Of a stretch of 64,000 nucleotides of DNA, positions 8,201 through 25,156 are shown piece by piece. The notes below the pieces were generated by a model. That model was not told the origin of the DNA. It ran no database searches and saw nothing but the letters and a program-made list of their open reading frames with translations. The position numbers and the translations under genes are program-made. The DNA comes from Beijerinckiaceae bacterium (GTDB taxonomy: Bacteria > Pseudomonadota > Alphaproteobacteria > Rhizobiales > Beijerinckiaceae): the NCBI GenBank assembly GCA_009773635.1, contig WSYC01000020.1, forward strand, positions 1 through 64,000, given 5' to 3'. Numbering within the stretch: position 1 is the stretch's first letter; every line of letters starts with the position of its first letter.

Positions 8201-8459
8201 TGAGGCGGATCAGCACGCCTTTCGCACGGGAAAGCGTCTGTTCGAGGTAGGTATCGACCGAAAGCGGATGCCTGAGTGCGATGAGATTGGCGAGGCGCAG
8301 CGAAGGAAGGTGCGCCCGCCCGCTCCTCCAGCCAGCGGCGAAAGCGGAAAGATCGCTGTCCGAGAAAGACAGCACGACGAGATCGGCCGGGTCCTGACCC
8401 AGATCGACCGGTGTTTCCGCCTCGTCTAGCCCATGCTTTTCCCGGAAAACGACGTGCAT
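5211..8459 (-). CDS. cobN: Cobaltochelatase large subunit CobN
   Basis: CobN is the large tetrapyrrole-binding subunit of the ATP-dependent CobNST chelatase that inserts cobalt into hydrogenobyrinic acid a,c-diamide. The 1082-residue protein has family motifs including STYPGKNHQMAHAVGLD, HIGAHGTLEWLPGKAVALS near residue 510, GRNLFSVDPRAVP and a C-terminal RHGFRGAAEI segment. It is shorter than the roughly 1270-residue CobN of Pseudomonas denitrificans but continuous, without frameshift. The ATG at 8459 overlaps the cobW stop as TGATG. CobS and CobT, the AAA+ partners, are not in this window. Confidence 0.95.
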   Translation of the reverse strand: MHVVFREKHGLDEAETPVDLGQDPADLVVLSFSDSDLSAFAAGWRSGRAHLPSLRLANLIALRHPLSVDTYLEQTLSRAKGVLIRLIGGESYWPYGLAEVHALAQAKGIALAVLPADGRPDARLSAFSTLPEAVLSRLSMLCDAGGARAAEIALAELAHAAGIGPAPTGFATQIPACGWYSPEAGVIPPPAPCAELAVVVFYRSYLTAADTGPVDALITALRARGFTALGLFAPSLKGESAATIMRELARLEPVALINATAFSAKGPEGVSPLDAAGCPVFQVALATIRRDDWSGDERGLPPTDLAMHVVLPEVDGRIFAGVASFKTMQPRDPDLQCALFSHQAEPERIAAIADRVSAWRKLAQRSPEAKRIVMVLSTYPGKNHQMAHAVGLDPLASLEAMLADLAATGHAVEPRPPEQGFAAALQYETLDFPLEAYHAALATLPVDLREKLGKSWGEAEADPQVVAGAFRFPALWQGNALVALQPERGERALREDDYHDTARVPRHAYVAFYLWLNTLEIDALVHIGAHGTLEWLPGKAVALSGTCWPEALTGAMPVLYPFIVNDPGEAAQAKRRIGAVTLGHLPPPLIDASVPEALSRLEILLDEYSTADGLSPARRDRLVADIRSEASARGVEADLGIPPGASAAEALVRIDRFVCDIKESRFGDGLHIFGRGACGAEEQAGLNLALAGRRVPAGPSGSPNRVREDILPTGRNLFSVDPRAVPSHAAHAQGVKLAEELLRRHLQDHGDWPRALVVDLWGSATMRSAGEEFAMALHLAGLAPLWDSGSARVSGFEILPPALLDRPRIDVTLRVSGLFRDVFPDLARMFEAASVALARRQEEGAENPYITRGPRVFGPEPGRYGLDMGDLSGDFSAAARHAAGEAWLRASSFAIDAEGRSSPARAALEARVLGSDVFVHVQDLPETDLLLAMDYAAHEGGFAAAVARLGGAAPTLYHLDSTRPETPRARDLTEEIARVTRARATAPEWLDGMMRHGFRGAAEIAGTLDHLAAFAHLTHAVPDHLLDLYFEATLGREDIVAFMTRENPGALAAMRGTFAALAASGLWQTRRNTIRAALEGGA

Positions 8460-9484
8460 CAGCCCTCCAGCACGGCCCGGATGGCGGCTTCGTCGATGTG
8501 ATCATGCTCCGCGATCACCACAAGACGGGAGAGGCGGGGCGCGCTGCCCCAGGGGCTGTCGAACTGCGTCGAGACGCGCGCGCCAACCGCCTGCACCAGA
8601 AGCCGCATCGGCTTGCCGGCAACCGCGACATAGCCCTTGACCCGCAGGATCTTCTGCTCGTGCGCAAGGCGGATGATCGCGGCTTTCAGCGCCTCGGGAT
8701 CGGTGATTTCCGGCAGGGCAATGGTCGCGGAGTCGAAATCCTCATGCTCATGCTCCTCCTCACCATCGTGGTGGGAAGGGCGGGCATCAAGACCATCCTC
8801 GGCGGCGGCATTCAGCCCGAGGATGACGCGAGGGTCGATGACGCCGCCGGTGATCTCCAGGATCGGCAGCGCGCGCGGCAGTTCCGGCACGATGGCGGCG
8901 CGGGCGGCGGCTAGCCCTTCCGGCCCGGCGAGATCGGCCTTGGTCAGCAGCACGATATCGGCGCAGGAAATCTGGTCCTCGAACACTTCCGAAAGCGGCG
9001 TTTCATGCTCGTGTGCGCTGGCATTCAACGATGCCGGGTGATCTTCGGGCGCGAAGGTGCCGGCGGCCACCGCCTCGGCATCCGCCAGCGTGATGACGCC
9101 GTCCACCGTGATCTTCGAGCGGATCGCCGGCCAGTCGAAAGCTTTGAGCAGCGGCTTGGGCAAGGCAAGGCCCGAGGTTTCGATCAGGATGTGATCGGGC
9201 TTCGTCGGCAGGGCGAGCAGAGCCTCGATGGTGGGGATGAAATCCTCAGCCACCGTGCAGCAGATGCAGCCATTGGCCAGTTCGACGATGTTTTCCGCCG
9301 GGCAATTCGCGTCGGCGCAGGATTTGAGGATCGCGCCATCGACGCCGAGCGTGCCGAATTCATTGACGAGAACCGCGAGGCGCTTGCCCTGCGGATTGGC
9401 CATCAGATGGCGGATGAGCGTCGTTTTTCCCGCACCGAGAAAGCCGGTGACGATGGTGACGGGAATTTTGGCAAGCTGGGACAT
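8459..9484 (-). CDS. cobW: CobW-family GTPase in cobalamin operon
   Basis: CobW is a COG0523 metallochaperone GTPase thought to supply Co(II) to CobN. The 341-residue protein has the P-loop GFLGAGKTT at residue 13, the metal-site motif CICC near 74, the G-domain motif TKAD, and a His/Glu-rich stretch (HHDGEEEHEHE) near residue 240 before the CobW C-terminal domain. It starts 4 bases after the DUF1636 stop and overlaps cobN by one base. Position directly before cobN under the B12 riboswitch separates it from the second COG0523 gene at 19823, which is Zur-type. Confidence 0.95.
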   Translation of the reverse strand: MSQLAKIPVTIVTGFLGAGKTTLIRHLMANPQGKRLAVLVNEFGTLGVDGAILKSCADANCPAENIVELANGCICCTVAEDFIPTIEALLALPTKPDHILIETSGLALPKPLLKAFDWPAIRSKITVDGVITLADAEAVAAGTFAPEDHPASLNASAHEHETPLSEVFEDQISCADIVLLTKADLAGPEGLAAARAAIVPELPRALPILEITGGVIDPRVILGLNAAAEDGLDARPSHHDGEEEHEHEDFDSATIALPEITDPEALKAAIIRLAHEQKILRVKGYVAVAGKPMRLLVQAVGARVSTQFDSPWGSAPRLSRLVVIAEHDHIDEAAIRAVLEG

Positions 9485-9488: not shown

Positions 9489-9917
9489 TCAATCCTGAAC
9501 CGGTGATTTCAAAGGCGGGGTGAGGGCAGAGGCCGCGGGCAATTCCGAAATGGGCGAGCTGGATGCTGGCATGGGCGGAATCCGGGCAATCGATTGCTTG
9601 CGGAAGATTTCAGGCCGCTGCCGCCACGGCACGATGCCGTCCTCGCTCTGGGCATAGAGCGCCGCGCCCTCGATGATCGCCAGGGCATGCAGAACGGGGT
9701 CGAGATTGCCGTAAACATACGACCATTTGCCCGGCGCGGCCAGCGCCACGGAGCAGCCATTGTTGCACGCCGAGAGGCACTCGGCGCCGATGATCGTGAC
9801 ACCCGCCGGGGTCTCCTGCGCCTCGATCAGCCGCAACAGTTCAGCGCCGGGGCGTGGTGCATCAGGCGCATCGGCCCGGCGGCAGGTGGTGCAGACGTAA
9901 AGCGTGGCCGTGGCCAT
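9489..9917 (-). CDS. DUF1636 small metal/ferredoxin-like protein, first gene of cob operon
   Basis: This 142-residue DUF1636 protein has a thioredoxin-like [2Fe-2S] cysteine pattern: CTTC near residue 9, then CLSACNNGC near residue 50. Sequence context suggests a redox or metal role in corrin synthesis, for example in keeping cobalt or the corrinoid reduced, but no activity is established. I chose the ATG at 9917, preceded by a GGGG stretch, over the ORF-track start at 10079, because the longer version would lie inside the B12 riboswitch. It is the first gene after that riboswitch and is followed 4 bases later by cobW. Confidence 0.85.
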   Translation of the reverse strand: MATATLYVCTTCRRADAPDAPRPGAELLRLIEAQETPAGVTIIGAECLSACNNGCSVALAAPGKWSYVYGNLDPVLHALAIIEGAALYAQSEDGIVPWRQRPEIFRKQSIARIPPMPASSSPISELPAASALTPPLKSPVQD

Positions 9918-9942
9918 GAAACCCCTTTCACCAGCAGGCAAA

Positions 9943-9994
9943 GGGTGTCCCAGAGGGGCTGCGCAAAGCAGACCCTGCCGGCTACGGAACACCC
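9943..9994 (-). promoter_or_regulatory. Candidate expression-platform hairpin of the cob riboswitch
   Basis: On the minus strand, GGGTGTTCC and GGGACACCC can pair (9 pairs with one G-U) between the riboswitch aptamer and the DUF1636 start codon. The downstream arm is about 25 nt before the ATG and close to the ribosome-binding region. It could be an intrinsic stop or a ribosome-site sequester; there is no long U-run, so translational control seems more likely. This is an inference from base pairing only. Confidence 0.4.
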
Positions 9995-10014
9995 CGTCCG
10001 TCCGAAAATCGCGT

Positions 10015-10205
10015 GTGCTGGCAGGTCTCCCGGCTTGCGGATCACGGGTCGGGGGAAAACCCCAAACCCAGCGGCTCACTACCTTCCCAGCCCGAAAGCC
10101 AGTGGATTAGTGCGCCTTTCCGGTCACGGTCGCGGGGGCGGCTGCGCTTCGGGTCTCCCCTATCGCATTCCCTCTTCGCCTGTCATAGACAGGAACCAAC
10201 ACAGA
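10015..10205 (-). promoter_or_regulatory. Cobalamin riboswitch controlling the cob operon
   Basis: Read on the minus strand, the leader contains the ordered cobalamin-riboswitch blocks: a GGTTCCTGT/GACAGG stem, GAGGGAA, a GCCGCCCCCGCGACCGTGA core, a CCACTGG segment, and the terminal B12 box AAGCCGGGAGACCTGCC at about 10018-10034. It lies 100 nt upstream of DUF1636-cobW-cobN-cobGHIJ and should shut them off when adenosylcobalamin is abundant. The divergent cobO gene starts 58 bp beyond its 5' end and is not downstream of it. Confidence 0.93.
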
Positions 10206-10263
10206 GCAACCGAAGCGGCAAGCCCGCCGCTTTGTCAAGCCGGACCCGGAGCTGATCTCCACA

Positions 10264-12333: not shown

Positions 12334-12957
12334 TTATCGCTCTTCCCACACCGTCGGGGTGTTCTCCTGCCAGCCTGTCCGGTGCAGAAGCGGCGTATCG
12401 TCGTGGGTTTCTGGCCAGCCTAGGCAAAGGTAGGCCGAGAAGCGCCAGCCTTCCGGCACCTGGAGAAGGTGTTCCATGTGGCGCGGATCGAGAATCGAGA
12501 CCATCCCGAGGCCGAGGTTTTCTGCCCGTGCCGCAAGCCAGAGCGTATGGATCGCCATCGCGGTGGATTGATGCAGGGTTTCCGGCATGGTGCATCGCCC
12601 AAGCCGATGGCCAGCTTCAGGATCTTCCAGCATGAAAATGGCGAGTTGCTCCGGTGCGCGGTCCAGCCCCGCAAGTTTGAGGCGGGCATAGACCTCAGCA
12701 TGTTCTGGATCATATCCAGCGGCTGCGACCCGGTTTTCCTGTTCGAAAAGCGCGCGGACCGCTGCGCGCAGAGTGGCGGATTTCACCGAGAGAACGCGCC
12801 ATGGCCGGGCATTGCCGACCGAAGGCGCAAGGGCCATCATGGTCCGCAATCGCACCAGAAGGGCCTCGGGTACTGGATCAGGGCGGAAATGACGGACATC
12901 CCGCCGCCAGCGCAGCAGGGTTTCAAGTCGCGCGGCATCCTCCGGGGAAAAATTCAC
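12334..12957 (-). CDS. bluB: 5,6-dimethylbenzimidazole synthase
   Basis: BluB fragments FMNH2 with oxygen to make 5,6-dimethylbenzimidazole, the lower ligand of B12. The product is a 207-residue flavin-destructase/nitroreductase-fold protein with RRDVRHFRPDPVP near residue 15, APSVGNARPWR, and the C-terminal YLCLGWP segment. I prefer a GTG start at 12957, forming a GTGA overlap with the cobC stop and giving the usual family N-terminus, over the ATG at 13011, which would overlap cobC by 58 bases. It ends the leftward cobD-cobC-bluB group. Confidence 0.93.
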   Translation of the reverse strand: MNFSPEDAARLETLLRWRRDVRHFRPDPVPEALLVRLRTMMALAPSVGNARPWRVLSVKSATLRAAVRALFEQENRVAAAGYDPEHAEVYARLKLAGLDRAPEQLAIFMLEDPEAGHRLGRCTMPETLHQSTAMAIHTLWLAARAENLGLGMVSILDPRHMEHLLQVPEGWRFSAYLCLGWPETHDDTPLLHRTGWQENTPTVWEER

Positions 12958-13940
12958 GATTCCCCCCGCGGCGGTGAAACCGGTTTCAATGCCTCCGCCA
13001 GGCGTGTCCATTCAGGTGCGCAGCCAGGTATTCCAAGGCGTATCCAGTGCCGGGAAAAGGGGAAAATCCGGCTCCAGATATGATGTCGGGCCAGCGCCTC
13101 CTGCGCGGTGATCGCATCGGGCACGGCAAAAAGCCTGAACAAGGATGTCCCGCCGACGCATTGCCAGCCTGCTGCTAGGGCCAGTGCATCGAGCAGATCC
13201 GCTTCCAGTGCAAGGCGCGCGCGGGTGGCTTCCTGCCAGTTGGTATCGCTGAGGGCCGCGGTCCCGATCTCGATCGCCGGCCCGGACACTGGCCAGGGGC
13301 CAGCAAGCTCGCGGAGCGAAGCGATGATCTCCGGCGAGCCGAGCGCGAAGCCAAGTCGAAGCCCGGCCAGACCATAGAATTTGCCGAAAGATCGCAGGAT
13401 GATCAGGTTCTTCCGCCCGGCCTGCGGGGCGAGCGACACCTCCGGCGTTGCATCCGCGAAGCTTTCATCCACGATCAGCAGGCCGACATCATGGCTGAGA
13501 TCAAGCAACGTCGGGAGCGAAAGGGTCCGGCCATCGGGATTGTTGGGATTGACGACAACCGCGAGATCAGCCCCGCGCAGTGCTTCAGGCGTTGCGACCG
13601 GTTCAACAGTCCAGCCCGCTGCAGCGAGGCTTGCAGCATGTTCATTGTAGGTCGGCGAGAGAACCCTTGCACATCCCGGCAGAATAAGGCGTGGCAGGAG
13701 CTGGATGGCGGCCTGCGCTCCCGGCAAGGGCGCGATATCCGCTTCGCTTGCATAGCAGCGCAAGGCAGCAGCCATGAGCCTGCCGATCTCGGTTTGTGTG
13801 GGAAGTCCCGTCCAAGTAGTCGAGGAAATCGCTGGCACGGGATAGGGGATTGGGTTGATCCCGGTCGAAAGATCGATCCAGGAACCGGCACCAAATCGCG
13901 CAACGGCCATGTCGAGGTTTCCGCCATGATCGCGCATCAT
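12954..13940 (-). CDS. cobC: Threonine-phosphate decarboxylase / CobC aminotransferase-fold protein
   Basis: CobC is a PLP-dependent class I/II aminotransferase-fold enzyme that makes the (R)-1-amino-2-propanol phosphate linker (CobD in Salmonella). The 328-residue protein shows the substrate loop DLSTGINPIPYP, NPNNPDGR, DESFAD, the Schiff-base lysine context LRSFGKFYGLAGLRLGF and the C-terminal WIRLGIPG. An ATGATG pair at the start overlaps the cobD stop; either ATG could be used. Its stop overlaps the bluB GTG. Confidence 0.93.
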   Translation of the reverse strand: MMRDHGGNLDMAVARFGAGSWIDLSTGINPIPYPVPAISSTTWTGLPTQTEIGRLMAAALRCYASEADIAPLPGAQAAIQLLPRLILPGCARVLSPTYNEHAASLAAAGWTVEPVATPEALRGADLAVVVNPNNPDGRTLSLPTLLDLSHDVGLLIVDESFADATPEVSLAPQAGRKNLIILRSFGKFYGLAGLRLGFALGSPEIIASLRELAGPWPVSGPAIEIGTAALSDTNWQEATRARLALEADLLDALALAAGWQCVGGTSLFRLFAVPDAITAQEALARHHIWSRIFPFSRHWIRLGIPGCAPEWTRLAEALKPVSPPRGES

Positions 13941-14884
13941 TGCACCGCGAACGCCAAAGTGCCGAGGGCGACCGCGAGGAGCAGGATCACCCGGCGATAG
14001 AGGGCAAGACCGGCAAGGATATCAGCGGCTGCCGGGTCGCGCTTGCAGGCATTGACCCACGGCTCGTCCGACACCGCACCCTCGTAGGCGCGCGGGCCGG
14101 AAAGCCGCACCCCTAGAGCGCCTGCCATCGCCGCTTCCGGCCAGCCAGCATTCGGGGAGCGATGATGGTCGGCATCGCGCCAAGCCGTTGCGATTGCCGC
14201 GACCGGGCGCGAAGAGGCGAGGGCGAAGAGAAGAGCAGTCAATCGCGCTGGAACGAGGTTGACGAGATCATCGAACCGGGCCGAGGCCCAGCCGAACGCC
14301 GAGAATCGCTCCGTGCGATGGCCGATCATGGAATCGAGCGTGTTGATCGCCTTGTAGGCGGCCAGCCCCGGCAACCCGAGCAGCGCGCCCCAGAACAGCG
14401 GGGCGACGATCCCGTCCGAGGTGTTTTCCGCGAGGCTCTCGATGGCTGCGCGGCTCACGCCTGCTGCATCCAGAAGATCCGGATCGCGCCCGACGATCTT
14501 GGAAACCTCGATCCGTGCACCGGCCAGATCACCCGCGTCCAGCGGCACCGCGATCGCCCTGACATGCTGATGCAGGGATCGCGCGGCAATGAGCGGCCAG
14601 CCCGTGATCCCTGCGATGAGCATCGCGGGAGTGCCGGCCGGAAGGCTCCGCTCCAGCATGAGTGCGAGGAGGGCGGCAGTGCCCGCCACGAGGACCAGCA
14701 CGAGAACCCCGGCGAGGCGACGCTTGAGCGCCGGCCATGTACCCCGGTTGAGTTTTCCCTCCAGAAACAGGATCTGGCGCCCGATCCACGTCACGGGGTG
14801 CCCGATGCGCCGGAACAGGCCGTCCGGCCAGCCGACAGCAAGATCAATTCCCAGAGCGACGAGCATGACAACCGGCAAATTCAT
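13937..14884 (-). CDS. cobD: Adenosylcobinamide-phosphate synthase (CbiB/CobD), membrane protein
   Basis: CobD (CbiB) condenses adenosylcobyric acid with the aminopropanol phosphate arm at the inner membrane. The 315-residue protein has the hallmarks IDLAVGWPD(G), HPVTWIGR near residue 29, ESLAENTSDGIVAPLFW and a hydrophobic C-terminus consistent with several membrane spans. It is the first gene of the cobD-cobC-bluB group; a 128-bp gap separates it from the fusion gene upstream on the same strand, so it may be read from that operon or from its own promoter. Confidence 0.94.
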   Translation of the reverse strand: MNLPVVMLVALGIDLAVGWPDGLFRRIGHPVTWIGRQILFLEGKLNRGTWPALKRRLAGVLVLVLVAGTAALLALMLERSLPAGTPAMLIAGITGWPLIAARSLHQHVRAIAVPLDAGDLAGARIEVSKIVGRDPDLLDAAGVSRAAIESLAENTSDGIVAPLFWGALLGLPGLAAYKAINTLDSMIGHRTERFSAFGWASARFDDLVNLVPARLTALLFALASSRPVAAIATAWRDADHHRSPNAGWPEAAMAGALGVRLSGPRAYEGAVSDEPWVNACKRDPAAADILAGLALYRRVILLLAVALGTLAFAVQ

Positions 14885-15012: not shown

Positions 15013-16230
15013 TCAGGATGGCGCATGGACATGGCATGTCATGGGCATGCTTCCGGCGTGCCGGAATGTCAGCACCAGATCGACCGTGCTTCCGGGATCG
15101 GGCACATCGGGGATATCGAGCAGCATCAGATGCAGACGGCCGGGCTGGAGGCGAATGGTGCTTCCCGCCGCGAGAGGCAGGGGCAGGCCCTCGCCTGCAA
15201 GAATATCGTCATGGCCTCCGGCGGCGTGGATGGCGATGCGCGCCGAGAAGCAGCACTCGATCGCCAACAGCATGTCGTCGAACGTGCCAAGATTAGTAAT
15301 CTCCATGAACCCGGCCAGTGCATTGTCTTCCACCATCGCCTTGCGGACGAAAGCCTGCCGGATGCGGATCGCGCCGGCTTCCGCCGCTGCTAACGGCAGA
15401 TCGGGCTCGACAAGCGCACCATCTGTCTTCTTCAGCCGCTCGCCGGGCTGGAAAGCCCAGGGCGAGACGGGTTCTCCGCCCTGTGCGAGATGCCTGTCAG
15501 CGATGCCTTCGAGGGCTTCCGGCGTCAGGTTTCCATACCAGATGTTATCGGGCTGGATGCCGACGAGCGGCGCGAAATTGCACGGTCCCTGACAGTTGGT
15601 GGTGAGACAGAGAACCTCGTTCTCTTGGAGATCATCGGGTTTATGCGGGCCGAAACGCCGGCGGAGCTGGTCATAGATCACGGCAGCGCCGGCTTGCGCG
15701 CAGCGCGGCCCGAGGCAGACCAGCGCCACACGCGAGACATCGGGAATGCGCGAGGCGCCGGCCTTTATCTTCAGCGGCTTGATCGCCTCGCGGACATCGG
15801 TGCCAAGCCGGGCGCGCTCGATCACGGCACGCACCGGGGAAAGCTGGTCTGCTATCCCGTCGAGCGGATCGGCGAGAACGACACGCATTGCGCCAGCTTC
15901 CTCCGCGCTCCAGCGGCTGAGCCAGCGCCCGATCCAGCCCTTGAGATTACGGTCGAACGGAATGATCACGGGGACGACGACAACAGAGCGCACGCCCTCA
16001 TCGCGCAGGTGGAGCAGCACCACTGAAAGCGCGGGATCGGAGAGTTCCGCGAAGGCGATTTCACTCCGTTCCGCGAGGCCCTCATTGACAAGCGCTACCC
16101 CAATCTCGTCAAGCGTCCGCCGCTGTTCGCCGAGCGGCATGCCCCGCCCCAGCAGGACGGCAACCTCGAAAGCGGGCGATGGCGGCGCGGTATTAGCCAT
16201 TTCTCCCGGAGTGATCTCGTTCATGCTCAT
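15013..16230 (-). CDS. Three-domain fusion: CbiX-like domain, [2Fe-2S] thioredoxin-fold domain, PCuAC-like domain
   Basis: This 405-residue protein joins three domains. Residues 20-110 resemble CbiX-type chelatases (AELSDPALSVVLLHLRDEGV), but the usual GHGS reads GRGM and the later HVKRDIP-like His segment reads RNLKGWI, so both typical active-site His are absent. Residues 165-250 form a thioredoxin-like [2Fe-2S] domain (C172-x4-C177, C213-x3-C217). Residues 285-400 resemble a PCuAC copper chaperone (AGFMEITNLG, LHLMLLDI), with H335, H367 and M369 in metal-ligand positions but two ligand Mets missing. It is the last gene of a riboswitch-led ABC-importer operon, overlapping the ATPase stop (ATGA). 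Cobalt reception or redox handling is inferred, not shown. Confidence 0.8.
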   Translation of the reverse strand: MSMNEITPGEMANTAPPSPAFEVAVLLGRGMPLGEQRRTLDEIGVALVNEGLAERSEIAFAELSDPALSVVLLHLRDEGVRSVVVVPVIIPFDRNLKGWIGRWLSRWSAEEAGAMRVVLADPLDGIADQLSPVRAVIERARLGTDVREAIKPLKIKAGASRIPDVSRVALVCLGPRCAQAGAAVIYDQLRRRFGPHKPDDLQENEVLCLTTNCQGPCNFAPLVGIQPDNIWYGNLTPEALEGIADRHLAQGGEPVSPWAFQPGERLKKTDGALVEPDLPLAAAEAGAIRIRQAFVRKAMVEDNALAGFMEITNLGTFDDMLLAIECCFSARIAIHAAGGHDDILAGEGLPLPLAAGSTIRLQPGRLHLMLLDIPDVPDPGSTVDLVLTFRHAGSMPMTCHVHAPS

Positions 16231-17009
16231 CGCTTCTCTCCGGAGTGTCGGGCATGCATCGGCACGATGACCGGCATCGCCTGTCCCTGTTGATCGGGAA
16301 TCGCGAACTGGCGCATCGCAACCCCGTAGAGCCGCGTGAGGTTCGCCTCGCTCATGATGGTGTCGACCGGACCGGAAAGCGCCGCCTCGTTCTTCATCAT
16401 CAGCAACGCATCATCGGCGGCGGCCAGCGCGTGATTGGGGTCGTGCGTGGTGAAGAGGATCGTCATTTCGCGCGCCTGCCGGAGATCATTCAGGAGGTAG
16501 AGGAGCCGGCCCTGATTGCCAAGATCAAGCGCCGAGGCCGGCTCATCGAGCACCAGCACGTCCGATCCGGTTGCGAGCGCACGGGCGATCAACCCCATCT
16601 GCCGCTCGCCGCCCGAAAGCCGCGCAAAGGGTTCACCGGCCAGATGGCGGATCCCGACGCGCTCGATCGCGGCATCGGCGGCGCGGTAATCCTCCGGTGA
16701 GGGCTGGCCGAAAAGGCCGACCCGGGCGCAGCGCCCCATCACCACCATCTCGCGCAGGGCGTGGGGCGCGGGGATCGTGAGGAGTTGCGGCACGTATCCG
16801 AGTCGGTTCGGGGCTGTCCGCTCTCCCTCAGTGAGGGGAAGAAATCCGAGGATCGCATGGAGGGCTGTCGTCTTGCCGCGCCCGTTCGGGCCGAGAATGG
16901 CAAGCGTCGCGCCATGCTCGACCGCAAGGTCCAATCCGCGGAAAATCCAGCGGGAGCCGAAGCGCATGCCGGCGCGGTTAAGGGCGATCTTCATGGGGGT
17001 GATCTTCAT
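16227..17009 (-). CDS. FecE/BtuD-type ABC transporter ATPase
   Basis: This is the ATP-binding subunit of a FecCD-family importer for a metal chelate or corrinoid. The 260-residue protein has Walker A GPNGRGKTT (the residue before the Lys is Gly, as usual), a Q-loop YVPQ, signature LSGGERQ, Walker B VLVLDEP and the switch His in FTTHDPNHAL. It overlaps the permease stop by ATGA upstream and the fusion gene start by ATGA downstream, so stoichiometric co-translation is likely. The C-terminal 40 residues are Met- and His-containing (QAMPVIVPMHARH). Confidence 0.92.
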   Translation of the reverse strand: MKITPMKIALNRAGMRFGSRWIFRGLDLAVEHGATLAILGPNGRGKTTALHAILGFLPLTEGERTAPNRLGYVPQLLTIPAPHALREMVVMGRCARVGLFGQPSPEDYRAADAAIERVGIRHLAGEPFARLSGGERQMGLIARALATGSDVLVLDEPASALDLGNQGRLLYLLNDLRQAREMTILFTTHDPNHALAAADDALLMMKNEAALSGPVDTIMSEANLTRLYGVAMRQFAIPDQQGQAMPVIVPMHARHSGEKR

Positions 17010-18052
17010 GCCTCGCGCTCCCGGAAATGCCGGCGCAGCAACAGCGCAAAGATCGGTGCGCCGACAATCGCCGTCAGCACGCCGAGCGGGATTTCCGCCG
17101 TTGTCGCGGTGCGAGCGATGGTGTCGGTCACCACCAGGAAGCTCGCGCCGATAAGTGCGGTGACGGGCAGCGCGACGCGCTGGTCCGGTCCGACGATGAG
17201 GCGGCTGATATGCGGGATGATCAGCCCGACCCAGCCGATGATGCCGCTGACCGCGACACTCGACGCCACCACGATTGCTACGAGGCCGAAGACGAGCCAG
17301 CGTTCCCGTTCGGGGTGCGCGCCAAGGCTGCGGGCCTCGTTCTCGTCAAGCGAGAGGATATTGAGGCGAAAGCGCAGGGCCAGCAGCACCGACGAGCCGG
17401 TGACAAGGCCCGGCGCGGCAAGCCCTGCCTGCTCCCAGGTGGCGCTGGCGAAACTGCCCATCAGCCAGTAGACGATCGCGGGCAGCGAGCCGTTGGGATC
17501 AGCAACGAACTGGATCAGCGAGACCAGCGCGGAAAACAGCGACCCGACAACAAGCCCGCCGAGCAGGACGGTGACGGTCTCCGTCCGGCCGTCAATCCGC
17601 GCAATCCAGCCGACCAGCACGAGCGCACCAAGACCGCAGGCGAAGGAAAGGCCGAGTAGCCCCACGCCTGATATCCCGAGGAAAATCGCCAGCGCCCCGC
17701 CAAAGGCGGCGCCGGGAGAAATCCCGAGAATCTGCGGCGCCACGAGCGGATTACGGAATACGCATTGCAGCGCCCCGCCACAAATCGCCAGCCCCGCGCC
17801 CGCAAGGATCGCCAGCACAAGGCGCGGCAGACGTACCAGCAGCAGGATACGCGCATCCACAGCCAGCGGCGCGGCGGGATCGGTGATGGCCTGGCCGAGA
17901 ATGGCGATCACGCGCGAGGGAGCAATCGGGAATTGCCCGACGCCGAGCCCGACAAGGCTCGCGGCCACCAGGAAGGCGACGAGAAGCGTGGTCGTCGCGA
18001 CACGCCGGGATTGCCGGCTTCCTGCCGCGACGAGGGCATCAGCGAGAGCCAT
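17006..18052 (-). CDS. FecCD-family ABC transporter permease
   Basis: This 348-residue polytopic inner-membrane permease belongs to the FecCD/BtuC family that imports iron-siderophores, haem and cobalamin. It shows VRLPRLVLAILAGAGLAICGGALQ near residue 80, RNPLVAPQILGISPGAAFGG and the coupling segment GIIGWVGLIIPHISR, about ten hydrophobic segments in all. I start it at the ATG at 18052, one base after the binding-protein stop, instead of the ORF-track start at 18118, which lies inside that gene. Substrate cannot be read from the sequence; the upstream riboswitch points to corrinoid or cobalt-related cargo. Confidence 0.93.
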   Translation of the reverse strand: MALADALVAAGSRQSRRVATTTLLVAFLVAASLVGLGVGQFPIAPSRVIAILGQAITDPAAPLAVDARILLLVRLPRLVLAILAGAGLAICGGALQCVFRNPLVAPQILGISPGAAFGGALAIFLGISGVGLLGLSFACGLGALVLVGWIARIDGRTETVTVLLGGLVVGSLFSALVSLIQFVADPNGSLPAIVYWLMGSFASATWEQAGLAAPGLVTGSSVLLALRFRLNILSLDENEARSLGAHPERERWLVFGLVAIVVASSVAVSGIIGWVGLIIPHISRLIVGPDQRVALPVTALIGASFLVVTDTIARTATTAEIPLGVLTAIVGAPIFALLLRRHFREREA

Positions 18053-18053
18053 C

Positions 18054-19166
18054 CTAGCGGCTCCGCAGCGCGTCGTATCCGGCAGCGGAAGCGTGGATCG
18101 GCAAGCGCAGGATGCCATCGATCTCCGTGTCCTTCAGCTCATAGGCGTAAAGTTCCCGGAATCGCATCCGGATCTCCCCGCGCAGGTCGAAGGCGAAAAC
18201 CTTCGGATGAAGCAGGTTCGCGAGCCACATCCAGGTCAGCGGTGATTCCTGGTTGGGCGGGTCCCAGCGATAGCCGCCAAGCGGATATTTGTAGACGCGT
18301 TTCGTGCGCGCCGCCGCCGTCTGCGACAGGATGGGGTCCTTGTAGATAAACTCCGGGGTCAATTCCTCCTCAAAACCGTTGAGGAAAATCACCTCCGGGT
18401 CCCAGGCCGCGATCCGCTCGCGGTTCACCGGCATGACATCGTTGAGCGCGGCGGCGACATTCTCGCCACCGGCCAGCGTGATCGAGGCATCCTCATAGCT
18501 GCCGCGCCCGGAGGCCGCCATCGCCGTCATCGCGCGCGAAAGATGCAGCACGCGCGGTTTTTGCGCGGGTGGAATGGCCCGCACCTTGGCACCGATCTCG
18601 GCCTCGACGCTTCTGCGCCACGCGATATTGGCAGCCGCGCGTTCGGGTTTGCCGATGGCGGTCGCGGCCAGCGTGATGTAGCGGCGCGCGTAATCCTCGG
18701 TACCATAGAGGATCAGCATGGTGTTCAACCCGGCATTGGTCAGCGGCTTGACGATATCGTCGCCGCGCCCGCCCCACTGGATGACGAGATCGGGCCGCGC
18801 GGCAGCCAGCGCCTCGACATTCGGCATGAAGTTCTGGCCCGCGATATCCGCGCGGATATCGGCGGTTTCGGGGAAGATCTTGCCCAGAATGCCCTCAAGC
18901 ATCGCGGTCTTGGCGATCCTGTTCATGCCGGCGAGGCTCTTCGTGCCCTGACCCATCGCAATGAGGATCGAGGCCATCGGGATCGGGATGGCGGCAACGC
19001 GTTCGGCCGGCTTTTCGAGGGTGACGGTGCGCCCTTCAAGGTCGGTCATCACGATCGGCTCGGCCCGCACTAAGGCAAGCGGCACGGTGAGGAGGGCGGC
19101 AAAGGCGAGAAGCGCGGCGCAAGGCCGGATCGCAGGACGGCGAAATATATGGCAACGAAATATCAT
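18054..19166 (-). CDS. Periplasmic substrate-binding protein of riboswitch-controlled ABC importer
   Basis: The 370-residue class III (FepB/BtuF-like) binding protein has an N-terminal signal peptide (hydrophobic CAALLAFAALLTVPLALV, cleavage after VRA) and a typical core: MTDLEGRTVTLEKPAERV, ARPDLVIQWGG, VIFLNGF. The ATG at 19166 has a GGGAGA ribosome site; the track start at 19202 is rejected. It is the first gene after the second cobalamin riboswitch, followed by permease, ATPase and the CbiX/ferredoxin/PCuAC fusion. No TonB-dependent receptor lies nearby. The ligand could be cobalamin, another corrinoid or a cobalt chelate. Confidence 0.9.
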   Translation of the reverse strand: MIFRCHIFRRPAIRPCAALLAFAALLTVPLALVRAEPIVMTDLEGRTVTLEKPAERVAAIPIPMASILIAMGQGTKSLAGMNRIAKTAMLEGILGKIFPETADIRADIAGQNFMPNVEALAAARPDLVIQWGGRGDDIVKPLTNAGLNTMLILYGTEDYARRYITLAATAIGKPERAAANIAWRRSVEAEIGAKVRAIPPAQKPRVLHLSRAMTAMAASGRGSYEDASITLAGGENVAAALNDVMPVNRERIAAWDPEVIFLNGFEEELTPEFIYKDPILSQTAAARTKRVYKYPLGGYRWDPPNQESPLTWMWLANLLHPKVFAFDLRGEIRMRFRELYAYELKDTEIDGILRLPIHASAAGYDALRSR

Positions 19167-19311
19167 GGGGTTCTCCCGTGGCGGCGCGGTGCGCGATGAC
19201 AATCAACCCCCGGACGCCCCGGTTTCCCGATGCGCCGACGATCATGACAATCACCTCTGCGGACAGCCGCCCCATGACGCGCCCCGCGCCTCGGGTGGGT
19301 GACAGACCACG

Positions 19312-19465
19312 GCAGGTCTCCTGGCTTGCGGGTCGTGGCCTGTGCTCCGCCTTCCCAACACCGGAATAACGGCATCAGTGGCTTGATGGAGGAGGCTCGC
19401 CGCTTACAGTTGCGGGGGCAGCCACAGCATTCACCCGGAACCAGGTGGCACTGCGTTCCCTTTTA
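19312..19465 (-). promoter_or_regulatory. Cobalamin riboswitch controlling the ABC-importer/fusion operon
   Basis: Minus-strand leader with conserved blocks in order: GGGAACGCAGTGCC, GGCTGCCCCCGCAACTGTAA, AAGCCACTGA, TTGGGAAGGCGG and the B12 box GCAAGCCAGGAGACCTGCC at about 19313-19331. It matches the class better than the one before the cob operon. A 145-nt expression platform separates it from the binding-protein ATG at 19166. It ties the whole importer operon to cobalamin supply. Confidence 0.95.
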
Positions 19466-19679
19466 AGTTCATTCGGCCTTGCGACCTCCGGGACACCGTC
19501 GTCGGGGCGATGCTAGGCACTGCCGTGGGGAAAGGCAACGTAGTTCTTTCCCGGTCGGTGAGGGGGATACTGCACTGATGCAGGATCCGGAAGTGAGCAG
19601 CAGCAACCGGGCGGCTCGACGAGCGTTGCCGACGCATGGCGAGGAATCTCGTGATTTTGGTCGAAGCGCTCGCTGTTTT

Positions 19680-19823
19680 CGTTCGCTTTTGGCCGACCAC
19701 GAGCCTGCAATCGTCGGAGCCTGCCCCGATCATGAGCGAGACATCACCCCGCCCACAGTCGAGATCAAGCACGCGCATCCCCTCGGTGATATCCATTGAG
19801 CGCGGGGCAAATTCCGACGCCAT
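19680..19823 (-). pseudogene. Remnant of a SAM-dependent methyltransferase behind the ZigA-like gene
   Basis: Right after the ZigA-like stop, a TGATG overlap opens a frame reading [18 protein letters not shown], then LDLDCGRGDVSLM, a clear motif I of a class I SAM methyltransferase, followed by a decayed Gly-Val stretch. After about 45 codons homology to the fold is lost and the frame runs into the riboswitch region. I read it as the surviving 5' end of a gene once co-translated with the GTPase. The remaining interval 19466-19680 shows no gene. Confidence 0.6.
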
Positions 19824-21052
19824 CACGCCGCTTCGGCCCTGCGCCAGACCGGAAACGGGTCGGCCAGGGTGCGGTACTTCTCGGGGTTGAATTTCAACGG
19901 CATGGACTCGCCCAGAAGGCACTGATCAAGCGCCGAGCGGATCGCCATTTCATCCAGCCCAATGCCGATGAAGACCAACTCCTGCCGCCGGTCCCCCCAG
20001 ACGGAATGCCAGTGGCGATTGAGAATCTGCCGCCATTCCTCGGATTTCGGCCAGCGATCACGCGGCACATTTGCCCACCAGAACCCCATGGCTTCCGTGC
20101 GGCAGACAGCGCCGGCAATCGAGAGTTCGCCCACCCACTCCGGCCGTGTCGCCAGCCAGAAATGCCCCTTTGCACGCACGAGACCGGGACAGGACTGCTT
20201 GAGAAAAGCCGAGAATTTCTCCGGGTGGAAGGGGCGGCGTGCCCGGTAAACGAAGGAAGAAATGCCGTATTCCACGGTCTCCGACACATGGTCCGCGAAA
20301 CCGTAAAGTTCCTTTGCCCAGAGCGGATGCCCTTGCGCCTTCTCGTAGTCGAAGAGGCCGGTATCCATGATCGCATCAAGCGGAGCCTTGCCGAAATCAG
20401 TTTCAACAAGGCGGGCATCGGGATTAAGGGAGCGCACCACCTTGCGCACGAGTTCGCGCTGCTCGGCTGAGACGTCCGAGATCTTGTTGATCACCACGAC
20501 ATCGGCAAACTCAATCTGGTCAGTCAAGAGATCAACAAGGCTGCGCTCATCGGCAGCTCCTGCCGTTTCACCGCGATCCCTGAGGAAATCGGTCGAGCCG
20601 AAATCCTTCATGAGATTAACGGCGTCGACCACCGTAACCATCGTATCAAGCCGCGCGACGTCGGAGAGCGAGAGGTCATTCTCGTCGCGAAAATCGAAGG
20701 TCGCGGCAATCGGCAGCGGCTCGGCAATCCCGGTGCCCTCGATCAACAGATAGTCAAAGCGCCCGTCCGCAGCGAGCCTTCGCACCTCGGCGAGAAGATC
20801 ATCCCGCAGGGTGCAGCAGATGCAGCCATTAGACATTTCAACGAGTTTTTCTTCGGTGCGGGACAAGCCGCCGCCCTCGCGTACCAGATCGGCGTCAATG
20901 TTCACCTCGCTCATATCGTTGACGATCACAGCGACGCGCTTACCCTCACGGTTGTTCAGGATATGATTGAGCAGCGTCGTCTTGCCCGCGCCAAGGAAGC
21001 CGGAGAGGACAGTAACGGGCAGGCGGGCATCGGCATTTGACGGTTCAGGCAT
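19823..21052 (-). CDS. zigA: ZigA/COG0523-family zinc-regulated GTP-binding metallochaperone
   Basis: This 409-residue COG0523 GTPase has P-loop [13 protein letters not shown] near residue 20, switch motif [16 protein letters not shown] near residue 80, NKISD and a CobW C-terminal domain with [25 protein letters not shown]. Proteins of this branch are made under zinc limitation and help deliver zinc. The ATG at 21052 (GAGAG upstream) is preferred over 21094 because a Zur-box palindrome overlaps the longer version. It is divergent from a zur-like gene. It differs from the cobW at 8459 in subfamily and regulation. Confidence 0.88.
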
Positions 21053-21084
21053 CGGTAAAATTCTCTCGTTGCGAAAATTCAAGA

Positions 21085-21103
21085 TATGTAACAATATAAC
21101 ATA
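21085..21103. promoter_or_regulatory. Zur-box-like palindrome between zigA and zur
   Basis: TATGTAACAATATAACATA is an AT-rich inverted repeat (six of eight arm bases match) of the form seen in alphaproteobacterial Zur sites. It lies 33 bp before both the divergent zigA and zur starts, so it could control zigA and autoregulate zur. The regulator assignment is inference from motif and context. Confidence 0.65.
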
Positions 21104-21135
21104 CCATCTTAAGTCAAGAGTGATGGGAGATTTTC

Positions 21136-21621
21136 TTGGCGATCACACTTCAGGACAAACCCACGGGTGAGGAAATCGATATCCCGATTGTTGGGCCCGC
21201 TATTCGCCCTGCGCATGAGCGCGGCGAGAGCGCGACAAAGCTGCGCCAGAAAGTTCTGGAAACTCTCTGCGGATCAGCCATCCCGCTCTCGGCCTACGAT
21301 ATTCTTAGCCAGATCCAGGGCGAGAAGCGCATCGCACCTACACAGGTTTATCGTGCACTCGATAGCCTTCAGGAAGCGGGCGCCATTTACAAATTGGCCT
21401 CCCGCCCAGCCTTCGTGTTGCGTGCTTCCGCGCCGGATACCGGTCGGAGCGTCGTGTTCATGGTGTGCAGAGAATGCGACCGCGTGCAGGAAAGCGCGGT
21501 TTCGAGCTCGGTTCAGCACCTGCAGGTAACTGCCGCCAAAGCAGGTTTCCGCGCCAGCAATCCGATCGTGGAAATCGTAGGTGAATGCGCGGATTGTGGG
21601 AGTGAAGGGCGCACCATCTGA
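21136..21621 (+). CDS. zur: Fur-family zinc uptake regulator
   Basis: This 161-residue Fur-superfamily protein has a winged-helix domain ([38 protein letters not shown], residues 50-90) and a dimerisation domain with two zinc-type Cys pairs, CRECD and CADCG, placed as in Zur. It should repress zinc-acquisition genes such as the divergent zigA when zinc is plentiful. The start is a TTG at 21136 with a GGGAGA site upstream; the N-terminal 30 residues are poorly conserved, so a later start is possible. Confidence 0.87.
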
Positions 21622-21678
21622 TATCTGTGCAGAATGCCGAGAGTTCTTACATGGCCTTGAGCCCGGAATGGTCGCGCT

Positions 21679-22104
21679 TTAACAGCGCTTGCGGCAATAG
21701 AGTTCGAGCTTGTGGCGCACGATGTCGTAGCCCAGCCTGGCGGCGATTTCGGTCTGCAATTTTTCGATCTCCTCTGATCTGAACTCGATCACCATGCTGG
21801 TATCAAGGTCGATCAGATGATCGTGGTGCTCGGCATCGGTATTTTCAAAACGGGCACGCCCTTCGTCGAAAGCGTGCCGCTGGATGGCGCCTTTCTCCTC
21901 CAGCAGCCGCAGGGTGCGATACACCGTCGAGAGCGAGACGGTACCGTCGATGGCATAGGCACGATGATAAAGCTCGTTCGCATCCGGATGATCGCTCGCC
22001 TCCGCGAGGACCCGCAGGATGACCTTGCGTTGCTCTGTCATGCGCAGTCCGACAGTCTTGATATCGGCGCAGAATCGTTCGTAGCGATCATCCGATTTTG
22101 TCAT
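21679..22104 (-). CDS. Fur/Mur-family manganese or iron regulator
   Basis: The 141-residue Fur-family repressor has a winged helix (GLRMTEQRKVILRVLAEA, VSLSTVYRTLRLLEEKG) and the regulatory metal-site region AEHHDHLIDLDTSMVIEF. It lacks the paired CxxC structural zinc motifs of classical Fur, as is common in alphaproteobacterial Mur. It is divergent from an outer-membrane protein plus sitABCD operon, with Fur/Mur-type boxes in the 122-bp gap. Mur is my preferred reading because SitABCD is a Mn/Fe importer; iron-sensing Fur is the alternative. Confidence 0.85.
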   Translation of the reverse strand: MTKSDDRYERFCADIKTVGLRMTEQRKVILRVLAEASDHPDANELYHRAYAIDGTVSLSTVYRTLRLLEEKGAIQRHAFDEGRARFENTDAEHHDHLIDLDTSMVIEFRSEEIEKLQTEIAARLGYDIVRHKLELYCRKRC

Positions 22105-22169
22105 AATGAGAATCTACCCCTTTTGCGAAGCAAGTGCAAAAACAATTTGCAAATAATTCCTAATTGCCG

Positions 22170-22192
22170 TTGACAGATGCAAATCGTTCGCA
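22170..22192 (+). promoter_or_regulatory. Promoter element and Fur/Mur-type operator upstream of OMP-sitABCD
   Basis: A TTGACA -35 hexamer at 22170-22175 is followed by TGCAAATCGTTCGCA (22178-22192), an inverted repeat of TGC-AA arms like alphaproteobacterial Fur/Mur boxes. A further half site, TTTGCAAATAATT, lies at about 22146. Repressor bound here would cover the spacer of the promoter reading toward the OMP-sit operon. A -10 box is not clear. Confidence 0.6.
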
Positions 22193-22226
22193 TTAGCGTT
22201 TCTACTGATCAACAAGGAGATGTGGC

Positions 22227-23219
22227 GTGACAACAGACGGACGACGGCAGCGACGAGCGGGCCCTATTTCTGTGATGACATCGGCCTTGGCCGCACTGGC
22301 GGTGAACGTGTCTGCGCAGGCGGCGGATCTTCGCAAAAAGCCGACAGAGTCACCAGCGCCGGCGGCACAAGCGTGCAAGGAAACGGCCGGGCTTTCGCCC
22401 GATATTTTCGGTTTCGCGGCGGGATCGGATGTCGCCGATCTCGGATCGTGGAGTGCCGGAGCGGAATATGGCGGTGCTTTCGGAACGCGATTTGGCAGCC
22501 TTCAAAGCCATGGCCTGAAGCTCCAAGCATCGACGTCACCTTTTCCCTGTCTTGAGGTTGGTCCATCGCTCACGTTTGGCGCCGGGCGCAGCAACGAGCG
22601 AATCGGCCAGACCTCCACAATCAGCAATGCAATCGGCGGCGGTATCGAATTCAAATACAAGCTCCTCGGGCGCTCGATCCATGGCATCGGGCTGACCTTG
22701 GTTGTGGAGCCGACCCTGGCGCGCGGTTATTCCCGCCTCAACGATCCCTTTGCGTCGCCGGCCATCTCGGGTACCGGCCTGCTGGCGGGCAATACGCTCA
22801 AGATTCTTATCGATTCTGAGTTGGTGGAGGATCGGCTCTATGGTGCATTCAACGTCGAGCACGGCTTGGGCTTGACCCGGAGTGACGTCAACGGTTGTAC
22901 GACAAACAGCGGCTCGGGCTATTGCCGGGCCTCCAATCTGAACCTGCGCGCGGCGCTCTCCCTCAAGGTGGCCGATAATTTCTATTTCGGCGGTGAGGTC
23001 TCGCATCAGCGAGCCTATGACGGGGCATTCCTGAACCGCGGACTTGGCCATGCCTGGTTCGCCGGCCCCAACTTCCTCTGGCAGATCAACGAGAAACTCT
23101 CGATGAATGGGGCCTGGGCGTCCCAGATCGCCGGCAAGTCGAACGGCCAGACCAATTCCCTCAACCTCGAGCAGTTCAATCGCCATCTGGCGAAGGTGAA
23201 GCTCGGCTATGCTTTTTGA
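22227..23219 (+). CDS. Outer-membrane beta-barrel protein leading the sit operon
   Basis: The 330-residue product has a signal peptide ending NVSAQA-AD and a C-terminal strand ending in Phe (VKLGYAF), the classic signal for BAM-dependent outer-membrane insertion. Alternating Gly/aromatic strands (GGGIEFKYKLLG, FYFGGEVSHQRAYD) support a barrel. GTG at 22227 has AAGGAG eight bases upstream; an ATG at 22220 in another frame is too close to that site. It sits between the Fur/Mur-type operator and sitA, so it may be a manganese or iron channel, comparable in context to MnoP of Bradyrhizobium, though I see no clear homology. Confidence 0.75.
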   Translation: MTTDGRRQRRAGPISVMTSALAALAVNVSAQAADLRKKPTESPAPAAQACKETAGLSPDIFGFAAGSDVADLGSWSAGAEYGGAFGTRFGSLQSHGLKLQASTSPFPCLEVGPSLTFGAGRSNERIGQTSTISNAIGGGIEFKYKLLGRSIHGIGLTLVVEPTLARGYSRLNDPFASPAISGTGLLAGNTLKILIDSELVEDRLYGAFNVEHGLGLTRSDVNGCTTNSGSGYCRASNLNLRAALSLKVADNFYFGGEVSHQRAYDGAFLNRGLGHAWFAGPNFLWQINEKLSMNGAWASQIAGKSNGQTNSLNLEQFNRHLAKVKLGYAF

Positions 23220-23238
23220 ACAACAAGGAACCGATCTC

Positions 23239-24186
23239 ATGTCGCATCGTGCTTTTTCACCGTTCCGGCGGCGACTTTTCAGCCTGGCATCCTTTTCGAT
23301 CGCGGTTGCAATCACCGCCTTTGCCTTCGGCGGGGCGTCCCAGGCCCAGACCCCGAGGGCGCCTGGAAAGCCGTTGCGGGTGGTGACCACCTTCACCATC
23401 CTTCAGGACATCGCGCAGAATGTCGCGGGAACGGCAGCCATCGTCGAATCCATCACCAAGCCCGGCGCCGAGATTCACGATTATCAACCGACGCCGCTGG
23501 ACGTGGTGAAAGCGCAATCCGCCGATCTCGTGCTGTGGAACGGGATGAACCTGGAACGCTGGTTCGAGAAGTTCTTCGAGAACGTCCGAAACGTGCCGAG
23601 CGCCGTTCTGACCGATGGCATCGAGCCGATGGGCATCAAGGAAGGGCCCTACGAGGGCAAGCCAAACCCCCATGCCTGGATGTCCACCCAGAGCGCGCTG
23701 ATCTATGTCGAGAACGTCAGGAAGGCGCTCGCCAAGGCCGATCCGGCCAATGCGGCTGTTTATGCGCAGAATGCAGCGGCGTATTCCGCCGAAATCAAGG
23801 CTATGGATGCGCCGCTCCGTGAGCGGCTGGCGAAAGTGCCGGAAAAGCAGCGCACCCTCGTCAGCAGCGAGGGCGCCTTCAGCTACCTCACTCGCGATTT
23901 CGGCTGGAAGGAAGCCTATCTCTGGCCCATCAACGCGGATGAGCAGGGCACCCCGCAGCAGGTGCGGCGCCTGATCGATCTCGTCCGCAAGAACAAGATT
24001 CCCGTCGTCTTCAGCGAAAGCACGGTTGCCGACAAGGCCGCAAAGCAGGTCGCGCGCGAAACCGGCGCAAAATACGGCGGCGTGCTGTATGTCGACAGTC
24101 TGAGTGCGGCGAATGGACCGGTGCCGACCTATCTGAAACTGCTAGAAGTAACAGTCGAAACCATCGTCAAGGGGTTCGGAAAATGA
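23239..24186 (+). CDS. sitA: Mn/Fe ABC transporter substrate-binding protein
   Basis: SitA captures Mn(II) or Fe(II) in the periplasm. The 315-residue cluster A-I (TroA/ZnuA) protein has a signal peptide ([19 protein letters not shown]), then metal-ligand contexts [11 protein letters not shown] (His), NPHAWMS (His), [14 protein letters not shown] (Glu) and a C-terminal VDSL Asp segment. The acidic ligand and lack of a His-rich loop favour Mn/Fe over zinc. The ATG at 23239 follows AAGGA; the track start at 23209 lies in the previous gene's tail. Confidence 0.93.
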
Positions 24187-24217
24187 CGGGCGGCGAGGCA
24201 ACGAGAGGCCGGACGAC

Positions 24218-25156
24218 ATGAAAAGTCGCGTGCTTGAAATCCATTCAGAAACACCGGCGCGGAGCTTATCCGCGCCGTCTGGCCGCTTGATGCCCTCCAT
24301 CCAGGTCAACAACATTACCGTCAGCTATACCAATGGCGTGGCGGCGGTGCGCAACGCCTCCTTCAAGCTCGGCGCATCCACGATCTGCGCGCTGGTCGGC
24401 GTCAACGGTTCGGGCAAATCGACGCTCTTCAAGACGCTGATGGGGTTCCTGACGCCTTCGAGCGGCGACGTCCGGATTGCGGGGTTGCCCGTCAATACGG
24501 CTCTCAAGCGAGGGCTCGTGGCCTATGTGCCGCAAAGCGAGGATGTCGACTGGAACTTCCCCGTTCTCGTCGAGGATGTGGTGATGATGGGGCGCTATGG
24601 CCACATGAGTTTCCTGCGCATGCCCGCCAAATCGGACCGGCAGGCGGTTGATGAGGCGTTGGAGCGCGTCGGGATGAGCGATTATCGCAAGCGCCAGATC
24701 GGCGAGCTTTCAGGCGGCCAGAAAAAGCGCGTCTTTCTGGCCCGCGCCCTCGCGCAAGGCAGCGAGATCATTCTACTCGACGAACCCTTTACCGGCGTTG
24801 ACGTGAAGACCGAATCCGCGATCATCGATCTCCTGCGCGCCATGCGCGATGACGGGCGGCTGATGTTCGTTTCGACGCATAACCTCGGCAGCGTGCCCGA
24901 CTTCTGCGATCAGGTGGTGCTCTTCAACAAGACTGTTTTGGCCTATGGACCTACGGCAACCACCTTCACAGAGGCCAATCTGGCGGAAGCCTTCGGCGGG
25001 CTGCTCCGCCACGTGCGCCTTGGCGGCTCCGATCTCCACGATGACGCCGACCAGCGGCGCGTGACGGTGCTGACCGACGACGAGCGCCCGCTGGTTCTCT
25101 ATGGCGAGCGCGATCAGGAAAAACACATCAAGCCCGATCGTGGCGGGGCATCATGA
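24218..25156 (+). CDS. sitB: Mn/Fe ABC transporter ATPase
   Basis: The 312-residue ATPase energises Mn/Fe import. It shows Walker [11 protein letters not shown]-loop [14 protein letters not shown] (typical of the Sit/Mnt group), signature LSGGQKKR, Walker B IILLDEP and VSTHNLG. The N-terminal 24 residues before MPSIQVNN look non-conserved, so translation may start at the ATG at 24290; the 24218 ATG has a GAGAGG site. The last 50 residues extend beyond the ATPase core. Its stop overlaps sitC by ATGA. Confidence 0.93.

Follow-up and report, generated by a model that had tools for sequence, protein, structure and literature searches.

A riboswitch-controlled FecCD-type importer operon with a CbiX-like/ferredoxin/PCu(A)C fusion: a candidate cobalt uptake system in a Beijerinckiaceae bacterium

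What does an ATP-binding cassette (ABC) importer carry when it is placed behind a cobalamin riboswitch, misses the family cut-offs of the vitamin B12 importer BtuFCD and brings along a multidomain accessory protein? We address this question for a four-gene operon of a Beijerinckiaceae bacterium (GenBank assembly GCA_009773635.1), located on the reverse strand of the first 64,000 nucleotides of contig WSYC01000020.1—the whole stretch of DNA that we analyzed, hereafter the window. The operon encodes a periplasmic binding protein, a FecCD-type permease, an ATPase and a 405-residue fusion of a CbiX-like domain, a thioredoxin-like [2Fe-2S] ferredoxin domain and a PCu(A)C domain. Based on our analysis, the cargo is likely to be a cobalt species. 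That the operon as a whole imports cobalt (as an ion or small chelate) in the manner of CbtJKL from Sinorhizobium meliloti, with the fusion serving cytoplasmic release and handover, has in our judgment about an even chance, and we put forward the specific part assigned to the fusion somewhat more tentatively than that.

Operon layout and domains of the fusion

A cobalamin riboswitch precedes the operon (coordinates of all features in Table 1), its RF00174 match of 112.8 bits comparing with an Rfam gathering score of 31.5, and it carries a 17-mer B12-box at 19311 with zero mismatches. The riboswitch extends to 19515, 50 bases past 19465, where the piece treated in a preliminary description of this DNA ends. 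Between the aptamer and the start codon, the predicted fold of a possible expression platform was no better than those of shuffled sequences (z 0.37). ATGA overlaps, read directly in the sequence, link the ATPase gene with those of the permease (17006-17009) and the fusion (16227-16230), accounting for two of the three junctions in the four-gene importer run; the binding protein/permease junction has instead a stop codon at 18054-18056 and a likely ATG at 18050-18052, leaving a 1-nt gap if the start at 18118 is unused. The open reading frame (ORF) of the binding protein spans 18054-19202 with a TTG start, and the ATG at 19166 yields an N-terminus that, by eye, resembles a signal peptide. The preliminary description had proposed B12-type regulation, an operon of binding protein, FecCD permease and ATPase with the fusion as fourth cistron, and ATGA overlaps among the last three genes; the riboswitch score, the ORFs with their Pfam matches and the junctions confirm it on each of these points.

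Within the fusion, the PCuAC (1.8e-15, 57.2 bits against a cut-off of 29.4) and 2Fe-2S_thioredx (2.3e-6, 28 against 24.8 bits) matches exceed their cut-offs, and the CbiX match (2.7e-4, 21.6 bits) falls 0.4 bits below the 22-bit Pfam cut-off; in the corresponding fusion from Bosea sp. WAO all three domains score above theirs. A structure model of the whole fusion has high confidence for domains 1 and 2 but is poor past residue 276. The modeled CbiX-like domain has a chelatase fold, with SirB (5zt9, Z 13.6) and CbiK (1qgo, Z 13.0) as solved relatives, and also resembles (Z 11.3) the chelatase-like domain of DR2241 from Deinococcus radiodurans (2jh3), a multidomain protein known here from its entry title. 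The ferredoxin domain resembles Aquifex ferredoxin (1m2a, Z 14.5). When modeled alone from 7 sequences, the PCu(A)C domain reached a mean predicted local distance difference test (pLDDT) score of 87.5 and template modeling (TM) scores of 0.82-0.84 to the copper-bound PCu(A)C domains of PmoF1/2.

CbiX, SirB and CbiK are class II chelatases of the same fold, from which the CbiX-ferredoxin proteins differ in lacking either catalytic histidine. We aligned 39 of these proteins (the window's, 35 from genome loci and 3 from plasmid loci) and found no histidine in the first catalytic column (R 19, K 12, S 7, N 1; His 0/39) or the second (S 29, A 7, N 2, T 1; His 0/39), with the four cluster cysteines of the ferredoxin kept in 39/39. 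Aligning the window's domain to the solved chelatases 6m2a and 3lyh likewise placed other residues at both positions. Because both histidines, whose catalytic role is described in the available part of PMC7689651, are missing, the CbiX part is not a working cobaltochelatase, and this candidate activity was rejected. Chelatase-fold proteins with roles outside metal insertion for synthesis have a precedent in FetB, a heme-binding protein to which the CbiX-ferredoxin profile has a weak match (E 0.0069) and which PMC13402209 (seen in part) describes as a chelatase that exchanges metals.

The odd feature of the operon is its added, probably cytoplasmic PCu(A)C domain, which we observed in just two cases, this operon and that of Bosea sp. 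WAO. From the Cu(I) ligand set of PCu(A)C, which we take to be H-M-H-M, both fusions keep three of the four positions (one His and the HxM) and have lost the middle Met, while all four ligands are present in 12/12 usable stand-alone rows (two further rows were dropped as out of frame). In this region the two fusions also have in common one additional His (340) and two Cys (326, 399). Neither fusion shows a signal peptide on inspection by eye, which makes a cytoplasmic location of the domain probable. Thus, compared with PCu(A)C copper chaperones such as the PmoF1/2 domains and DR1885, the fusions retain the fold and the His...HxM but differ in ligands and in being joined to a cytoplasmic-type protein. 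The ligand change may favor Co(II) over Cu(I). The window also encodes an ordinary PCu(A)C-Sco pair (51700-52927, reverse strand) with all four copper-ligand positions, in contrast to the fused domain.

CbiX-ferredoxin genes beside importers of two classes

We searched the proteins of whole genomes from the order (397), family (298), class (385) and phylum (398), in overlapping sets, and fetched the surroundings of all 35 CbiX-containing matches from the order, family and class searches, along with those of one ferredoxin-only fragment (L111). The phylum search gave one CbiX-covering match beyond the window's own, whose surroundings are not in the locus set. From the 14 plasmid records with a CbiX-covering match, surroundings were fetched for 7, and the tabulated set comprises 38 loci (35 from genomes and 3 from plasmids).

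By position and strand, RF00174 lies upstream of the gene in 33 of these 38 loci, and an ABC importer component is adjacent in 32 (31 within 200 bp on the same strand, plus L085 by Pfam). The preliminary description had considered a metal-handling fourth cistron unusual, a view at odds with how often two-domain CbiX-ferredoxin relatives adjoin importers. The neighboring importers belong to two unrelated classes, FecCD-type or Opp/Nik-type, and because one accessory is common to both, the CbiX-ferredoxin protein appears tied to the cargo and not to the pump. In three genomes the gene adjoins nrdA-nrdB: L082 and L084 show the order riboswitch-nrdA-nrdB-CbiX-ferredoxin, and Bosea sp. WAO shows riboswitch (132 bits)-nrdA-nrdB-binding protein-permease-ATPase-fusion, the last four genes being orthologous to those of the window's operon. 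An Azospirillum CbiX-ferredoxin operon is adjoined by NikR. In the other four plasmid records the gene also stands beside importer genes, with an upstream B12-box in two and none in two from Rhodococcus (L164, L167), where it is the last cistron of FecCD importers and, in one case, adjoins ArsR and merA genes.

The class and family genome searches used the CbiX-ferredoxin part, the PCu(A)C extension then being sought in the fetched loci, and only that of Bosea sp. WAO (G610) carried it in frame. A second search with both fusions relied on two exact peptide patterns, which more distant triple fusions could escape, and returned Bosea sp. WAO as the one full-length relative together with four Gemmatimonadota ferredoxin-domain matches; a single-sequence query of genome contigs confirmed no close relatives of the window fusion. 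Among the papers searched, none joined PCuAC with CbiX, none mentioned "cobaltophore", and none contained more than one of the terms PCuAC, "cobalt chaperone" and "cytoplasmic PCuAC".

Cargo of the importer and weighing of the alternatives

The best solved relative of the binding protein is 4ovk (2.9e-53), with BtuF reaching only about 6e-6. In a tree of 41 rows it pairs with the Bosea protein (support 100/100), and the 18-row clade around this pair (100/99) otherwise holds members without CbiX; Escherichia coli BtuF and CbtJ of S. meliloti fall outside this clade, both on long branches. The importer falls short of the NCBIfam equivalog cut-offs of all three Btu proteins (BtuF 32.9 vs. 234, BtuC 248.3 vs. 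461, BtuD 79.1 vs. 281 bits). We rejected BtuF membership on the missed cut-off and tree position, and CbtJ orthology on its place outside the clade and the absence of a phmmer match to the window protein at 1e-3. Labeling the tree by the presence of CbiX-ferredoxin requires at least 3 changes (0 of 500 shuffles were as low); importers of separate lineages have therefore been paired with it. Cobalt as a general cargo of this binding-protein family is not supported, given a riboswitch in 1 of 12 genome relatives. That relative (L150, 2120-8520) has the order riboswitch-metE-binding protein-FecCD-ATPase-FmdE-like gene, which puts the gene of a B12-independent methionine synthase ahead of an importer from this family. 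Elsewhere (L035, L141-L149, L151 and others), relatives of the binding protein are accompanied by a 436-aa protein, or two halves of about 205 aa, with no Pfam match, as well as an FmdE-like gene and, in many cases, a TonB receptor, a set that makes up an unexplained uptake system.

We favor a cobalt species as cargo because of the riboswitch, the pairing with nrdAB and, in L150, metE, the accessory shared with Opp/Nik importers, and the precedent of CbtJKL. A corrinoid is disfavored because cobalamin is too big for ordinary porins and we found 0 matches to the TonB plug domain PF07715 in the genome (98.7% complete), with an E. coli control giving matches. CbtJKL, whose riboswitch and genes we re-found, likewise has a cobalamin riboswitch ahead of genes for a binding protein, a FecCD permease and an ATPase; formerly taken for a B12 importer, it carries Co(II) according to the accessible part of PMC7689651, and PMC12239276 and PMC4207669 (likewise seen in part) also bear on this precedent. 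It differs in its binding protein, as the tree shows, and in its next gene, which in S. meliloti encodes a methyltransferase. With regard to the preliminary description, the binding protein did not group with BtuF, a grouping that would have spoken against its proposal of a cobalt-chelate cargo. That proposal stands insofar as the tree, the missed Btu cut-offs and the lack of TonB plugs make a cobalt species likelier than cobalamin, and this may be either a chelate or the free ion.

In the mechanism we propose, low adenosylcobalamin would permit expression of the operon, as expected from the riboswitch class, and the binding protein, permease and ATPase would import cobalt, as the ion or a porin-sized small chelate, to the cytoplasm. 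Here the fusion would act: its histidine-less chelatase-fold domain may hold the incoming species or a partner without inserting metal, the [2Fe-2S] domain may give an electron to any cobalt that comes in as Co(III), and the released metal may be kept by the PCu(A)C-type domain and handed on, probably to CobW and CobNST. The genes for the proposed receivers, cobW and cobN, lie a few kilobases from the fusion (the function of CobW is taken from the part of PMC7689651 seen). A broader version, possible but doubtful, would make CbiX-like/[2Fe-2S] proteins a general cobalt-release factor for importers under riboswitch control, in which the chelatase fold binds an imported Co chelate and reduction by the ferredoxin turns inert Co(III) into labile Co(II), much as siderophore reductases act on iron; in the two-genome variant, a cytoplasmic PCu(A)C domain with His/Cys ligands in place of Met would then catch Co(II) for CobW.

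Several observations weigh against this proposal. No importer adjoins the CbiX-ferredoxin gene in 6 of the 38 loci (L079 and L080, both inside cob clusters; L082 and L084; L090; L103), and S. meliloti cbtJKL is without such a gene. The window's binding-protein family, with a riboswitch in that single genome relative and in 0 of 5 plasmid relatives and mostly without CbiX, gives by itself no pointer to cobalt. Cobalt might also enter by other routes encoded in the genome, namely a riboswitch-led CbiM without CbiQ and one NicO protein, and both the Co(III) substrate and the contact with CobW are steps that we infer. TonB receptors occur in several of the CbiX-ferredoxin operons, consistent with a large cargo. 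The Anabaena operon alr4027-btuB2-alr4030-btuFCD, which is led by a riboswitch, is induced by lack of cobalt and has the ferredoxin-like alr4030 between btuB2 and btuFCD, imports cyanocobalamin, as stated in the available part of PMC10878165. By analogy, ferredoxin-bearing systems may carry corrinoids.

The last two points would suit an importer of cobinamide or cobalamin resembling BtuFCD, which is of the same importer class. In this reading the corrin ring would be held by the CbiX-like domain and its cobalt reduced by the ferredoxin, allowing ligand removal or adenosylation, with cbiB serving salvage. The cobalamin riboswitch, the suitability of a chelatase fold for tetrapyrroles and the best NCBIfam score of the permease (BtuC, although below cut-off) also agree with it. 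We nevertheless consider such a corrinoid importer unlikely: the genome yielded no TonB plug domain, the binding protein stands apart from BtuF and all Btu cut-offs are missed, the same accessory is paired with Opp/Nik importers, and the host has a de novo pathway. The Anabaena operon, similar in its riboswitch, FecCD importer and ferredoxin-like gene (alr4030, likened by description), differs in its BtuB-type receptor and its reported cyanocobalamin uptake.

The Opp/Nik importer class among the relatives and the NikR gene in Azospirillum could instead indicate a nickel or other divalent-metal importer that was captured by a B12 riboswitch and carries cobalt in part only, an explanation made improbable by the riboswitch in 33 of 38 loci and the placement with nrdAB, metE and cob genes. 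Still less probable, in our view, is a copper-linked module, in which a Cu(I) site would persist in the PCu(A)C domain and the fusion would either shield the B12 pathway from copper or deliver this metal: the PCuAC score, the fold match to copper-bound domains and the three kept ligands agree with this, but the Met lost from both fusions is kept in every usable stand-alone row, control is by a riboswitch, and an ordinary PCu(A)C-Sco pair is already present. We assign a similarly slight chance to the CbiX-ferredoxin protein being an electron donor to B12-independent enzymes such as class I ribonucleotide reductase, with the importer merely on the same switch; nrdA-nrdB does adjoin it in three genomes, but importers are adjacent in 32 of 38 loci, most of them without nrd genes in the fetched stretch.

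Genomic surroundings and implications for cobalt handling

The operon lies within a B12 synthesis cluster, in which cobQ, bluB, cbiB and cobC were named by family models and cobO, cobN, cobW, cobG, cobH, cobI, cobJ and cobK by reading ORFs, the latter partly backed by matches in other genomes; the window's CobW and CobN, used as references, strongly match proteins of other B12 clusters. The host has a de novo aerobic B12 pathway. Beginning 128 nt past the fusion, cbiB, cobC and bluB run on along the same strand, and since no terminator-like site was seen between the fusion end at 15013 and the cbiB start at 14884, up to seven genes may share the riboswitch transcript.

Table 1 Features of the importer operon and adjoining B12 genes in the window
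Feature	Position	Strand	Basis or remark
Cobalamin riboswitch aptamer (RF00174)	19294..19515	(-)	112.8 bits, full model 1-189
Periplasmic binding protein, cistron 1	18054..19166	(-)	Peripla_BP_2 5.6e-17
FecCD-type permease, cistron 2	17006..18052	(-)	FecCD 3.7e-79; ORF opens 18118, likely start 18052
ABC ATPase, cistron 3	16227..17009	(-)	ABC_tran 2e-21
CbiX-like/ferredoxin/PCu(A)C fusion, 405 aa, cistron 4	15013..16230	(-)	Pfam and predicted folds
Fusion domain 1, CbiX-like	residues about 21-143		Pfam and predicted fold
Fusion domain 2, thioredoxin-like [2Fe-2S] ferredoxin	residues about 165-262		Pfam and predicted fold
Fusion domain 3, PCu(A)C	residues about 285-400		Pfam and predicted fold
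cbiB	13937-14884	(-)	family models
cobC-type decarboxylase	12954-13940	(-)	family models
bluB	12334-13011	(-)	family models
cobW-type GTPase	8459..9484	(-)	ORF named by reading
cobN	5211-8459		ORF named by reading; adjoins cobW-type GTPase

In the stretch 9489-10215 (reverse strand), the window contains a second cobalamin riboswitch ahead of a DUF1636 gene, another small protein of unknown function under B12 control, followed by cobW-cobN. The genome's third (L123 4624-6358, reverse strand, with the switch at C31:102130-102358) precedes a CbiM gene and then a CobF-like methylase; CbiQ was not found in the genome, leaving CbiM solo. The window's permease is the only strong FecCD permease in the genome. 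Among genomes of the same genus, the 16 others have no CbiX-ferredoxin gene, and a cobN match is present in 4 of 17; one of them (G532) resembles the window in its cob cluster, with CbiM preceded by a riboswitch-like box, but has no such binding protein at E 1e-50. Because these relatives lack the CbiX-ferredoxin gene and G532 keeps its cob cluster and CbiM without the binding protein, the importer would be an addition to the CbiM route, and it probably came by transfer. Adjoining the B12 cluster are a ZigA-type GTPase, two Fur-family genes and a ZnuABC-like importer (19823-26963), probably a zinc-limitation set, and at 27370-28317 (forward strand) an ALIL pseudoknot accompanies an insertion-sequence transposase, as in programmed frameshifting of IS3-type elements.

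Little is established about the way in which cobalt, on its route from the membrane to the B12 chelatase, is set free and prevented from mixing with other metals. Accompanying B12 riboswitches next to importers of two unrelated classes, the CbiX-ferredoxin type offers a tangible candidate for this step, and the triple fusion, with reductase-like and metal-holding parts in one chain, makes the idea testable on a single purified protein. If true, it would call for re-annotation of many proteins now called "(2Fe-2S) ferredoxin domain-containing".

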